Assembly (NCBI RefSeq): GCF_004368405.1
Contig: NZ_SBJH01000010.1
Span: 124,001 to 188,000, forward strand
Length of the DNA: 64,000 nt
Origin: Olivibacter sp. XZL3
GTDB lineage: Bacteria; Bacteroidota; Bacteroidia; Sphingobacteriales; Sphingobacteriaceae
Direction of reading: 5' to 3'
How positions within the stretch are numbered: the stretch's first letter is position 1; the number at the start of each line of letters is the position of its first letter. The notes under the pieces were generated by a model. That model was not told where the DNA came from and did not search any database. It saw only the letters and a list, made by a program, of their open reading frames with translations. The position numbers and the translations under genes were made by a program. Below are positions 2,395 through 6,256 of the stretch, piece after piece.

Positions 2395-2427
2395 TATCAA
2401 GCCTGTCTGCGGAGGGCAGGTATCAAG
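2395..2427. repeat. 19-bp imperfect palindrome flanked by TATCAAG direct repeats
   Basis: In the hisG-hisD gap the sequence reads TATCAAG (2395-2401), then the stem-loop CCTGTCTGCGGAGGGCAGG (2402-2420), then TATCAAG again (2421-2427). The stem pairs CCTGTC with GGCAGG using one T-G wobble. A palindrome bounded by a perfect 7-bp direct repeat resembles a tiny insertion with target duplication, or one unit of a dispersed intergenic repeat. No coding role is visible. Confidence 0.75.
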
Positions 2428-2482
2428 ACCAATATATTATGATGATAAATCTTAAGTCCTGATACCGATATCGTCTGTCTAA

Positions 2483-3334
2483 TTACATAATAATTTTCTC
2501 AATCGGCATCACAACAATACCCTGCGCGCCGGCGGCTTTAAGCTTATTTATTCTTTCCCAAAAATCACGTTCTTGGATAACCGTATGAACCGCCACCCAA
2601 TCTTCTTCAGCGAGTGGCACCACCGTTGGGCTCTTTACACCTGGAAGCAGATTAAGGATAACGGGCAGGTTTTCACGTCTCACATTAAGCACAACATATT
2701 TCGTTTCTTTCGCTTTTAAAACCGATTGAATACGTTGCATTAACTCTTTTACTATCTCTTCTTTTTCAATTCCGTTCTTACCGATTAAGATGGCTTCGGA
2801 CGACATAACGTCGGCAAAAGGTTTTAATCCGTTGCTCTTTAAGGTGCCACCGGTAGAAACAATATCACAGATTGCATCGCTCAAGCCTAAACCGGGAGAA
2901 ATTTCCACCGAGCCGGAGATGGTTCTGATGGTCGCATCAATCTGATTGTCGGCTAGAAACTTCTTCAAAATGTTTGGATAAGAAGTGGCGATAGCCCGGC
3001 CTTCCAAATCGCCGATCGTCGTGAGTTCGCTTTCATTCGGGATCGCGATTTTCAAGGTGCATTTTCCAAAGCCAAGGCGTTGGAGGTAATGTACATCTAC
3101 TTCTGTCTCGTTAATCACGTTTTCGCCAACAATTCCCAAATCCGCAATGCCGTCTTGCACGTATTCGGGTATATCGTCATCACGTAAGAAAAGAATCTCT
3201 AATGGAAAATTGGATACGGAGGATATTAAAGAGCTCTTATAGTTTTCGAAGATTAAGCCACAGTTTTTAAGCAGCTCGACAGACTTCTCATTTAGTCTGC
3301 CTGATTTTTGGATGGCAATTTTTAAAGATGACAT
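2483..3334 (-). CDS. hisG: ATP phosphoribosyltransferase, long form
   Basis: Catalyses the first, committed step of histidine synthesis by joining ATP and PRPP. The 283-residue product is the long, hexameric form: two catalytic lobes (about 1-210) with GIADLGIVGENVI and the PRPP-binding segment DIVSTGGTLKSNGL, then a C-terminal ACT-like regulatory domain (about 211-283) that in this family binds histidine for feedback inhibition. It therefore does not need HisZ. It is first in the operon and lies 108 bp downstream of the histidine-rich leader peptide, so both allosteric and attenuation control are likely. Confidence 0.97.
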   Translation of the reverse strand: MSSLKIAIQKSGRLNEKSVELLKNCGLIFENYKSSLISSVSNFPLEILFLRDDDIPEYVQDGIADLGIVGENVINETEVDVHYLQRLGFGKCTLKIAIPNESELTTIGDLEGRAIATSYPNILKKFLADNQIDATIRTISGSVEISPGLGLSDAICDIVSTGGTLKSNGLKPFADVMSSEAILIGKNGIEKEEIVKELMQRIQSVLKAKETKYVVLNVRRENLPVILNLLPGVKSPTVVPLAEEDWVAVHTVIQERDFWERINKLKAAGAQGIVVMPIEKIIM

Positions 3335-3356
3335 CTAATAACGTATATTAAGGTTG

Positions 3357-3379
3357 ATAGCTTGTACTTGACAGGCTAT
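3357..3379 (-). promoter_or_regulatory. hairpin just upstream of hisG
   Basis: ATAGCcTGT pairs with ACAaGCTAT around a CAAGT loop: nine positions with one mismatch. It sits 22 bases before the hisG ATG, at the end of the leader region. It lacks a clear T-tract on its 3' side, so it could be a translation-control stem or part of the attenuator rather than a classic terminator. The role is inferred from position. Confidence 0.5.
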
Positions 3380-3421
3380 TAAATAATAAAATAAAATGAA
3401 AAATCGATTGGAGTTTATTTG

Positions 3422-3491
3422 CTTCACGTAGAAACATACTTATTACATATCGCCGCAAAGGCGATGATGAAAATGTACGTGATGTGTGAAG
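3422..3491 (-). promoter_or_regulatory. his attenuator secondary structures
   Basis: Two mutually overlapping pairings are visible in the leader RNA. One is the perfect hairpin ATCGCC-TTTGC-GGCGAT (3449-3465) at the end of the leader peptide. The other is long-range pairing of the His-codon region with downstream RNA: CACGTA (3476-3481) with TACGTG (3425-3430), or CTTCAC (3486-3491) with GTGAAG (3422-3427). A ribosome stalled on the His codons would block the long-range pairing. I do not see an unambiguous intrinsic terminator with a U-run, so the final step of the switch is unresolved. Confidence 0.55.
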
Positions 3492-3502
3492 ACTTTTGAC
3501 AT
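3443..3502 (-). CDS. hisL: histidine operon leader peptide
   Basis: A 19-codon frame upstream of hisG encodes MSKVFTHHVHFHHRLCGDM. Five of 19 residues are histidine, including two adjacent pairs (CAT CAC and CAT CAT). The ATG at 3502 lies about 30 bases after the predicted transcription start of a good Bacteroidota promoter, and the frame stops 108 bp before hisG. Its last codons lie inside a perfect hairpin. This is the expected layout of a ribosome-stalling attenuator that senses charged tRNA-His. Function is inferred; the frame and its composition are directly visible. The gene name follows the enterobacterial precedent. Confidence 0.8.
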   Translation of the reverse strand: MSKVFTHHVHFHHRLCGDM

Positions 3503-3540
3503 TTTTTATTGCTAAGTGCCTTTATTTAAAAGGAACATTG

Positions 3541-3571
3541 CAAATATAGCGTTTGATTTTGTTTTTACAAA
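3541..3571 (-). promoter_or_regulatory. his operon promoter
   Basis: TTTG (3568-3571) and TATATTTG (3541-3548) on the minus strand are separated by exactly 19 bases, matching the Bacteroidota -33/-7 consensus TTTG-N19-TAnnTTTG. Transcription would start near 3534, about 30 bases before the leader peptide ATG. Confidence 0.8.
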
Positions 3572-3787
3572 CAGAAGGTAACTTTTATTGTCAAAAAGTT
3601 ATACGCCTCCAGGAGAGCGTCCGAAGGCTATTATCAGACCGCTATAATCCAAACAGCAGACAGAAAAGCGTAAGCTTCGGCCCGGCGCTTATGGAGTAAA
3701 ATAACAAAGTAAGATCACCCAATACTAAATATATAAATTGTCCCTGGTCTATTGTTTTCGTACATCAAATACTGTACATTGGCTATG

Positions 3788-3795
3788 TAAATTTG
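3788..3795 (+). promoter_or_regulatory. -7 box of the alpha-glucosidase gene
   Basis: TAAATTTG matches TAnnTTTG and lies 13 bases before the ATG at 3809, which implies a very short leader. I see no matching -33 TTG at the usual distance, so the call is tentative. The rest of 3572-3787 shows no gene. Confidence 0.4.
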
Positions 3796-3808
3796 AAACA
3801 GACAGAAT

Positions 3809-6256
3809 ATGGCTGAAACAATTAATAAGAATACAATAGAACCAATTAAGGAAGAAGTGTTAGAATCGGGTATCCAGCATGTTAACAATCCCGTGCTGGA
3901 TTTGCCACAGATTGTAAAAAAGTATCTTCAGAAAATTACAGGATATACACAAAATGGTAATAGTTATGTTTTTACAGATGGTTCGGCTGCTGTAGAAATT
4001 AAAGTAGTAAGTGATGAGATTATTCGCGTGCGTCTAGCTCCGCATAACCAATTTTTAGATGACTTTTCGTATGCCGTTCCTAATCCCGATCAGCATGTGG
4101 CGCTTTATGCTTTTCAAGAAGAGGATGATACTTACAGCGTAAGCACGAACACGGTAACTTGTGTAATTAATAAAGAAGACTTTTTGATTTCCTTTCAAGA
4201 CAGAGAGGGGCGCGTGATCAACCGCGATCATACACCAATGCATTGGGAAGAGAACCCCGACTTTGGAGGCTATTACGTCTATTGTACCAAGGTGGCAGAA
4301 GAACAGGAAGCATTTTATGGAGTAGGGGATAAGCCAACGCATTTGAATTTACGCGGTAAACGGGTTACCAACTGGAACTCGGATACCTACTCGTTTTCGT
4401 TTGACCAAGATCCGCTCTACAGGAGTATTCCCTTTTATATCGGGCTGAACGAAGGAGAGGCATACGGTATCTTTTTCGACAACACGTTTAAAACTTATTT
4501 TGACTTTGCGGCAGAAAAAAATGATCAAACGAGTTTTTGGTCGGAAGGCGGAGAGCTGCAATATTATTATATCCATGGCCCACATATGATGGACGTTGTG
4601 AAACGCTACCACAGCATTACAGGCACACATTATTTGCCACCATTATGGGCTTTAGGGTTTCATCAATGCCGATGGAGCTATTATCCTGAAAGTAAAGTGC
4701 ATGAAATAGCGGATGGCTTCCGCTCGAGAAATATCCCCTGCGATGCCATTTATTTGGATATCGATTATATGGACGGTTATCGTTGCTTTACTTGGAACAA
4801 ACATTATTTCCCGAATCCCAAGAAGATGATCAAGACCTTGGCCGATCAAGGATTTAAGACCGTTGTCATCATTGATCCAGGTATTAAGGTGGATGATAAT
4901 TATTGGGTTTTTAAAGAAGGGAAAGAAAATAAATACTTCTGCAGAAGGGGCGATGATTACTTTATGGAAGGGCATGTATGGCCCGGTAGATGCCAGTTTC
5001 CTGATTTTACCAATCCCGATACACGTGAATGGTGGGGTGGTTTGTTTAAGGGACTGGTTGACGTAGGTGTGGCTGGCGTATGGAACGATATGAATGAGCC
5101 CGCCGTATTTGGGCGCGGGACTTTTCCCAACGATGTGAGGCATAACTACGATGGCTATCGCGGTTCGCACCGCAAGGCGCACAATGTATACGGAATGCAA
5201 ATGGTACGGGCAACCTATGAAGGTCTGAAAAAGTTGAATCACGGAAAGCGGCCCTTTACCATTACCCGCGCCGCCTATGCGGGGACGCAACGGTATTCTT
5301 CGGTTTGGACAGGCGATAATGTGGCTACTTGGGAGCACCTCCGTTTGGGGGTGTTGCAGCTTCAACGCCTATCGGTGTCAGGCATGCCTTTTTGCGGGAC
5401 GGATATCGGCGGGTTCAGTGGTGAGCCCGATGGCGAGTTGTTTAGCCGATGGATTCAGTTTGGAGTCTTTTCACCTTTTATGAGGGCACATTCAGCGGGC
5501 GACACGCGCGAGCGGGAGCCTTGGAGCTTCGGAGAAGAATTTGAAGCAATCAATAAGCAGTTTATCGAACTTCGTTATAAATTTCTGCCCTATATTTATT
5601 CCGTGTTTTGGGAGCATGCGCAATATGGTTTCCCTATCTTACGGCCTATAACGATGCTTGAACAGGCGATCGAGAGTAATATACCGAGAGAAGAAGAATT
5701 TTCTTTTGGCGATAAGGTGCTGGTTTCGCCGGTTATCAATCCCGGGCAGTTAAGTAAAAAAGTTTACCTGCCTGAAGGTTCCTGGTATTACTATTGGTCG
5801 AACAAGCTGTTTAAAGGCGGCGAGGAGCACGACATTCCGACCCCATTAAACGAAATGCCCCTGTTTATAAAAGCCGGCGCCGTCATTCCGGAGTTTCCTG
5901 TCATGCAATATGTCGATCTTCGGCAGGTAGAGTTTCTGAAACTGCGCGTTTACTATGCCGACCTCGAAGTGAACTCTTTTATTTACGAAGATCACGGAGA
6001 TACCTTCGCTTACGAGCAGGAAATATATCTTGAGAAAAAAATTGTACTAAAAGGTGAAAAAAATAGCCTGACCTTAAACCAAACGATTGATGGATTGTTT
6101 ACAGAGAGGTATGAAACTTATACGTTATGTTTTATTGGCTTACCTTTTGAAATAAAGAAAATATTGGTTGATAATCGGGCCGTTGAATGGAAAGAGGAAG
6201 AGGGGGTTCCAACTATTCAGGTTAATAAAGATTTCCGGAATATTGTCGTTGAATAA
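3809..6256 (+). CDS. alpha-glucosidase, glycoside hydrolase family 31
   Basis: Retaining alpha-glucosidase releasing glucose from alpha-glucan ends. The 815-residue chain has an N-terminal galactose-mutarotase-like domain (about 40-270), a catalytic barrel and C-terminal beta domains. The nucleophile is Asp427 in GVWNDMNEP and the acid/base is probably Asp503 in WTGDNVATW; HQCRWSYY and DIDYMDGYR are also family signatures. No signal peptide is seen, so it probably acts in the cytoplasm. It precedes glgB-glgA-glgC on the same strand, which suggests turnover of glycogen or of imported malto-oligosaccharides. The exact substrate cannot be read from sequence. Confidence 0.95.
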   Translation: MAETINKNTIEPIKEEVLESGIQHVNNPVLDLPQIVKKYLQKITGYTQNGNSYVFTDGSAAVEIKVVSDEIIRVRLAPHNQFLDDFSYAVPNPDQHVALYAFQEEDDTYSVSTNTVTCVINKEDFLISFQDREGRVINRDHTPMHWEENPDFGGYYVYCTKVAEEQEAFYGVGDKPTHLNLRGKRVTNWNSDTYSFSFDQDPLYRSIPFYIGLNEGEAYGIFFDNTFKTYFDFAAEKNDQTSFWSEGGELQYYYIHGPHMMDVVKRYHSITGTHYLPPLWALGFHQCRWSYYPESKVHEIADGFRSRNIPCDAIYLDIDYMDGYRCFTWNKHYFPNPKKMIKTLADQGFKTVVIIDPGIKVDDNYWVFKEGKENKYFCRRGDDYFMEGHVWPGRCQFPDFTNPDTREWWGGLFKGLVDVGVAGVWNDMNEPAVFGRGTFPNDVRHNYDGYRGSHRKAHNVYGMQMVRATYEGLKKLNHGKRPFTITRAAYAGTQRYSSVWTGDNVATWEHLRLGVLQLQRLSVSGMPFCGTDIGGFSGEPDGELFSRWIQFGVFSPFMRAHSAGDTREREPWSFGEEFEAINKQFIELRYKFLPYIYSVFWEHAQYGFPILRPITMLEQAIESNIPREEEFSFGDKVLVSPVINPGQLSKKVYLPEGSWYYYWSNKLFKGGEEHDIPTPLNEMPLFIKAGAVIPEFPVMQYVDLRQVEFLKLRVYYADLEVNSFIYEDHGDTFAYEQEIYLEKKIVLKGEKNSLTLNQTIDGLFTERYETYTLCFIGLPFEIKKILVDNRAVEWKEEEGVPTIQVNKDFRNIVVE

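Follow-up and report, generated by a model that had tools for sequence, protein, structure and literature searches.

The his operon of Olivibacter sp. XZL3 lies behind a short histidine-rich leader frame that very likely serves as a ribosome sensor of histidine shortage. It was found in a 64,000-nucleotide stretch of genomic DNA (the window), and the terminator-less his leader of the family to which this bacterium belongs is a variant of known attenuation. Sensing through the His codons is strongly supported because the third bases of these codons vary, the position of the first His is nearly fixed, and the surrounding RNA helices respond to the modelled position of the ribosome. Taken as a whole, the locus would be a histidine attenuator in which a long-range RNA form (P0/P1) cuts expression through premature termination at a U-rich tract, a reading that we regard as just probable. 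The original prediction had named ribosome-mediated attenuation; its sensor stands, and a classical transcription attenuator is not shown for the window, which has no canonical terminator and in which the modelled helix at a T-rich site responds in the wrong direction.

All features of the locus lie on the minus strand. The promoter consists of TTTG (3571-3568), the -33 element, and, after a 19-nt spacer, the -7 element TATATTTG (3548-3541), which is of the Bacteroidota type TAnnTTTG and places the predicted transcript start near 3534. The leader frame MSKVFTHHVHFHHRLCGDM (3502-3443), as read from the sequence, begins with the ATG at 3502, ends with the stop codon at 3445-3443 and encodes 19 residues, five of them His (codons 7, 8, 10, 12 and 13). 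It is followed by hisG, encoding ATP phosphoribosyltransferase (3334-2483; TIGR00070, 5e-57), hisD, encoding histidinol dehydrogenase (2370-1081), and a probable hisC (1027-2), which runs past the window edge and is assigned from the sequence as read and its position after hisD. The promoter, the 19-residue frame and its five His codons ahead of hisG are thus all present as originally described. The clustered His codons match the operon's own product and are conserved among relatives. By itself the frame is only suggestive, because 4 of the 846 short ATG frames (10-45 aa) in the window hold at least five His codons; conservation decides. The predicted fold of the 202-nt leader is more stable than all 200 shuffled versions (z -3.1). 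In the window, the interval from the leader frame to hisG contains no second TAnnTTTG box, so there is no hint of transcripts starting downstream of 3443, the start site itself being a prediction.

The leader is conserved throughout the window's family. The nearest hisG is that of Olivibacter jilunii (93% protein identity), and the best 80 of 514 relatives were taken as the family set; most of its record titles name Mucilaginibacter, Pedobacter, Parapedobacter and the like, presumably Sphingobacteriaceae, judging by genus name. A conserved short His-rich frame upstream of hisG had been proposed as a check on the prediction, and an ATG frame with at least three His codons was found within 450 nt upstream at 78 of the 80 loci. 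The other two are a locus with only 20 nt of upstream DNA (L074) and one where a frame with two His codons was seen by eye (L078); these were left out, and the 78 leaders plus the window make up a set of 79. A match to TAnnTTTG occurs no more than 80 nt upstream of the leader ATG in all 79, mostly at about 30-57 nt (first match in each). His occupies codon 7 in 74 of 83 distinct leader frames, and in those 74 the entropy of the His codon is 0.84 at the third base vs 0.38 and 0.36 at the first and second. Among 92 leaders, 74 have their first His at codon 7, and the His codons are kept within the genus Olivibacter. In Parapedobacter, five of the six leaders have 140-319 nt between leader stop and hisG, and P1 remains beside the leader. 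At two Parapedobacter loci (L003 and L004) this distance is 319 and 287 nt, and the interval contains no further TAnnTTTG box.

Beyond the family, 217 genomes of the window's class (at least 90% completeness) were sampled and a HisG match was found in 96, the window's own genome included. At E 0.001 the remaining 121 of the 217 had no HisG match. Apart from the window's own, 95 hisG loci were examined, and 70 of them have an ATG frame (10-45 aa) with at least four His codons no more than 350 nt upstream of the gene (shuffled mean 2.6; reverse strand 0). With at least five His the count is 50/95 (shuffled 0.4; reverse strand 0), and with at least three it is 80/95 (shuffled 7.3; reverse strand 11); hisG starts in this sample are alignment ends, so the distances are approximate. 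These counts indicate that histidine leader-peptide attenuation is common in the class where hisG is present. In the literature consulted, Proteobacteria do provide the best-described cases of such attenuation, as originally stated; the survey finds it widespread in this class as well. Of 103 matching genomes outside the class, 40 were sampled, and these cover 18 of 20 families. ATG-started frames (8-45 aa) holding at least three His codons were found in 16 of the 40 and ones with at least four in 15, some of the longer frames possibly by chance. HisG outside the class falls by score into two types, close (E < 1e-76, 24 loci) and remote (E > 1e-43, 16 loci), and ATG His leaders occur at 16 of the 24 close-type loci vs none of the 16 remote-type loci. 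The remote-type loci include one TTG His frame, which may be chance, and four close-type loci have a GTG frame with at least four His. Among the 24 close-type loci, no ATG His leader was found in three families (f69, f73 and f80).

The RNA downstream of the leader stop carries a near-invariant sequence in the window's family, GTATGTTTCTACG(T/C)GAA(A/G). In the window it forms the conserved palindromic hairpin P3, GTTTC-TACGT-GAAGC (3435-3421), in which the first five bases pair with the last five. Counted from the stop codon's first base, P3 is 8-10 nt away in 64 of 92 leaders. The element pattern, with at most one mismatch, occurs once each in 42 of 121 family genomes, a count that misses variants such as GTTTTG-TACTT-CAAAAC of some Pedobacter, and the pattern written backwards gave 5 matches in 4 genomes. 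The hairpin of that Pedobacter variant is preserved through two-sided changes. A His leader frame precedes the element at 20 of 20 loci sampled among the 42 genomes, and the element is free of mismatches in all five Olivibacter genomes. The element loop (TACGT or TACGC) and the TGTATG that precedes GTTTC (3438-3426 in the window) are, in the window and its relatives, more invariant than the pairings alone seem to need; they may be recognised by a protein or take part in a further pairing.

Two further pairings are predicted. P0 joins CTTCAC (3491-3486), in the leader frame ahead of the His codons, to GTGAAG (3427-3422); since GTGAAG also belongs to the 3' side of P3, P0 and P3 are mutually exclusive. 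P1, a weak helix of mostly A-U pairs in the predicted fold, joins the leader start region AATAAAAAATGTCAAAAGTC (3510-3491) to GATTTTTCATTTTATTTTATTATTT (3405-3381), which contains the U-rich tract. The fold also has a hairpin at the end of the leader frame, P2a (ATCGCC/GGCGAT, 3465-3449), and a small hairpin ATAGC...GCTAT (3379-3357) between the U-rich tract and hisG. The His codons had been described as overlapping alternative pairings. This applies to the last of them (3466-3464), which overlaps the separate hairpin P2a; the competing pairing is mainly that of P0, whose 5' arm precedes the His codons. Counted from the element centre, positions +21 to +30 are 60-67% T in the relatives, and the T-richest 8-mer holds 6.39 T vs 5.83 in shuffled sequences.

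The pairings were examined by an alignment-free arm-swap test, in which arms were exchanged between genera and the duplex energies compared, with 92 sequences in 19 groups of equal weight. The groups were drawn by hand from titles and genus labels, and eight of the 19 are single sequences; one locus in which no element was found (L049) was left out of the swaps and the state models, and six of 20 later loci were dropped as duplicates. Native arms of P1 averaged -13.0 vs -8.8 when swapped and were better in 18 of 19 groups. For P0, taken as the element 3' half, the values were -7.0 vs -5.2, again with 18 of 19 groups (17 in a wider window), and P3 was better in 17. Two control segment pairs were better in 7 and 11 of the 19 groups. 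Mucilaginibacter, with 52 of the 92 sequences, shows P1 clearly (-12.6 vs -7.1), and its native arms are no better than swapped ones for P0 (-3.4 vs -3.8) and P3 (-2.2 vs -2.5). Olivibacter, although tallied as better for P1, gives it no support (-7.4 vs -7.3); its P0 arms fit better in native combination (-8.6 vs -6.2; window, -8.2 vs -6.2). By this measure P0, P1 and P3 coevolve, with Mucilaginibacter (P0 and P3) and Olivibacter (P1) as exceptions, and the covarying stems that the prediction had suggested looking for were recovered to that extent. P2a was better in only 9 of 19 groups with fixed windows, perhaps because the position of the hairpin varies; some hairpin is predicted in the frame end of all 92 leaders (57 different sequences), a lenient count in which any hairpin qualifies. 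For P2, a candidate helix between the His codons and the stretch that precedes the element, the test gave no support (5 of 12 groups).

The effect of the ribosome was modelled in 78 sequences by equilibrium folding with a ribosome block, which ignores kinetics. With the ribosome at the first His codon, the mean for P3 was 0.85 and P0 had 0.1 pairs; with the ribosome at the stop codon, P3 fell to 0.07 and P0 rose to 4.9 pairs. In the window, P3 was 0.95 at the stall vs 0.00 at the stop. In the model, then, the mutually exclusive pairings P0 and P3 follow ribosome position, in the window too; for Mucilaginibacter this is without arm-swap support, and one of its leaders (L014) kept P3 in every modelled state. 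The helix at the T-rich site exceeded its stalled value by over 0.2 with the ribosome at the stop in 37 of 78 sequences, with the reverse in 5. In the window this helix has the wrong sign, 0.74 when stalled vs 0.51 at the stop.

Terminators were sought at class loci with one scanner, as a hairpin plus T tract between leader and hisG, at cut-offs of -9 and -6 kcal. In the window's family none of the 79 leaders, the window included, has one at -9 kcal (shuffled 0.7), and the 6 of 79 found at -6 kcal equal the shuffles (6.0). The unclear terminator reported originally is thus a trait of the whole family. The window's his leader has a single candidate of -6.2 kcal, and no canonical G+C-rich hairpin with a U tract was found in it, nor any stable hairpin abutting the U tract of the window's family. 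The class sample includes seven loci of this family; a hairpin passed in one of them (L087, -10.0 kcal), and this was P2a over the frame end. In the class outside the window's family, by comparison, 67 of 73 loci with a frame of at least three His codons have a terminator at -9 kcal (shuffled 5.3), and 68 of 73 at -6 kcal (shuffled 20.0). At 68 loci with a terminator its 5' arm was held by an antiterminator at 0.67 with the ribosome at the second His vs 0.34 at the stop. The antiterminator was favoured by the stall (difference > 0.2) at 50 of 68 loci and the reverse was seen at none. These values come from RNA folded up to the terminator 5' arm, a truncated fold that was used because the equilibrium model failed to split stall from stop at ordinary terminators (0.92 vs 0.95). 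As modelled, the class version outside the window's family is the classical attenuation scheme.

Other leaders of the Olivibacter genome have terminators. The Phe/Tyr-rich pheA leader MKYTAAYWFFGYFYFSSKGRD (locus L237 on contig C95, 1349-1414, plus strand) has a terminator of -19.2 kcal and is a probable Phe/Tyr attenuator; the model gave no difference between stall and stop for it (0.73 in both). The leader MTINTTIRNWWWPVKNSAGSTYNGID, with Trp-Trp-Trp, precedes a chorismate-binding trpE-like gene (locus L240 on contig C113, 3033-2953, minus strand) and has a terminator of -13.7 kcal, with stall-dependent antitermination in the model (0.61 vs 0.02). A Thr/Ile-rich leader, MKRTIAITTSTIITTGTAWYRGK (locus L243 on contig C113, 185-256, plus strand), lies before a fused aspartokinase/homoserine dehydrogenase gene and shows a hairpin plus T tract by eye; its composition resembles that of E. 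coli thrL. A non-exhaustive look at the same genome recognised no leucine or isoleucine/valine leader before leuA-like genes or ilvD.

From these observations we infer the following scheme. Transcription of the leader would begin at its own promoter, with translation following immediately. Under a shortage of histidyl-tRNA, the leading ribosome would stall at codons 7-8 and cover the first part of the leader frame; the element further downstream would then fold as P3, and the his operon would be on. When histidine is ample, the ribosome would reach the stop codon. The terminating ribosome probably masks the 5' half of P3, because the stop lies 8-10 nt before P3 in most relatives. The 3' half of the element would then pair with the first part of the leader frame (P0), a helix that in most genera would extend through the leader translation start into the U-rich tract (P1). 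The P0/P1 form may be a long-range terminator of a non-canonical kind that descends from the ordinary hairpin of the rest of the class. Termination is the output towards which we lean, at about one half. In its favour are the U-rich tract, the T-site helix that is stronger at the stop in 37 of 78 sequences, and the switch remaining with the leader in Parapedobacter, where hisG is far off; the lack of an ordinary hairpin and the wrong sign in the window speak against it. A terminator there would also not need pairing beyond the region richest in U, yet the leader 5' UTR favours such partners too (11 of 12 groups; -3.9 on both sides in Mucilaginibacter). More tentatively, and short of an even chance, we propose for the Sphingobacteriaceae a terminator-less attenuator in which i) the leader translation start supplies one strand of the long-range helix, which would make translation of the leader and formation of the OFF structure mutually exclusive; ii) the palindrome is masked by the terminating ribosome; and iii) the ordinary terminator has been replaced at his alone, the other leaders of the genome being unchanged.

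A translational output of the same sensor and switch is possible but unlikely. Here P1 would mask the region just upstream of hisG when histidine is replete, and stalling would open it. The original caution that the output may be translational or of another kind stands. Positions -30 to -8 of hisG fit the native leader 5' UTR better than swapped ones (-10.1 vs -6.2; better in 10 of 12 groups), an ordinary terminator was not found, and the pairing runs past the U tract. The start codon of hisG, taken as the tblastn alignment start and not the annotated one, is ATG at only 7 of 80 loci and otherwise GTG or TTG. However, the -30 to -8 pairing is hardly or not better than the swaps in Olivibacter and Parapedobacter, and the mean openness of the hisG start is the same, 0.59-0.60, in all four modelled states. 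The element ends 86 nt before the ATG of hisG in the window, and in five of the six Parapedobacter leaders 140-319 nt separate the leader stop from the gene. Sequestration of the hisG start by the element 5' side (6 of 12 groups) or by the leader frame (5 of 12) was unsupported, and pairing with these segments is not specific.

Rho-dependent termination, or alternatively RNA decay, is an improbable output, in which the switch would expose or hide a C-rich, G-poor stretch after the element. Such a stretch exists, with 35-41% C and 7-17% G at +11 to +20 from the element centre in an A+T-rich context, but it is short, and we know of no established rut rule for Bacteroidota. Less probable still is that the leader peptide is a real relic whose control was lost in Olivibacter. 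The P1 arms of this genus and the sign of the window's U-tract helix would fit such a loss, but the element free of mismatches in every Olivibacter genome, the better native P0 arms and the retained His codons speak against it. A chance His-rich frame, for which the few comparable frames in the window might be cited, has practically no standing, as it is ruled out by conservation through the family and the class.

The reading of the locus as a terminator-less histidine attenuator can be set against what has been described before. Leader-peptide systems were at one time known only in Proteobacteria and Actinobacteria, Firmicutes being added in PMC2965389, whose main text has no word starting "Bacteroid". 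The main text of PMC8305728, on the his genes of the superphylum, has no word starting "leader". For his leader attenuation in the phylum only hints were found in open papers, to judge from the parts consulted (PMC9723704, PMC7366714). Strong clues for leader-peptide attenuation before amino-acid operons are reported for Flavobacterium psychrophilum, with a structured conserved hisG 5' element in Flavobacteriaceae that has no Rfam matches (PMC9723704); that is another family, and the text as consulted contains no sequence, terminator-less variant or class-wide survey. In Bacteroides thetaiotaomicron, short frames in long 5' UTRs are described as reminiscent of transcription-attenuation leader peptides (PMC7366714); the example named there is a hypothetical protein, and histidine and hisG are absent from the main text. 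No account of a terminator-less his leader was found in open papers, and the attenuation survey of Lopatovskaya et al. 2010 might list his leaders of the phylum.

Rfam leader models gave no match in window positions 2400-5000 at E up to 10, where seven snoRNA matches fell below gathering scores, and none at gathering score in 18 loci. A T-box riboswitch or a known Rfam leader, the his leader family RF00514 included, is ruled out on this basis for that interval and those loci.

The nearest known counterpart is the hisL attenuator of E. coli and Salmonella, which the window resembles in its short His-rich frame before hisG, its very likely sensing by ribosome stalling and its exclusive RNA pairings. 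An intrinsic terminator is part of the enteric his leader; in the window's family an ordinary terminator was not found, and the exclusive pairing involves the first part of the leader frame. Within the Olivibacter genome, phe, trp and thr resemble his in having a leader frame rich in the cognate residue and differ from it in having ordinary terminators. Elsewhere in the class and phylum, hisG is likewise preceded by a His frame at a comparable position. Beyond the window's family, most such leaders of the class add a strong terminator and a stall-favoured antiterminator. A family that lacks the his terminator and keeps the sensor and coevolving helices is a natural experiment: the same sensor can therefore be compared with and without a terminator, and whether such a switch can work with none becomes a directly testable question.
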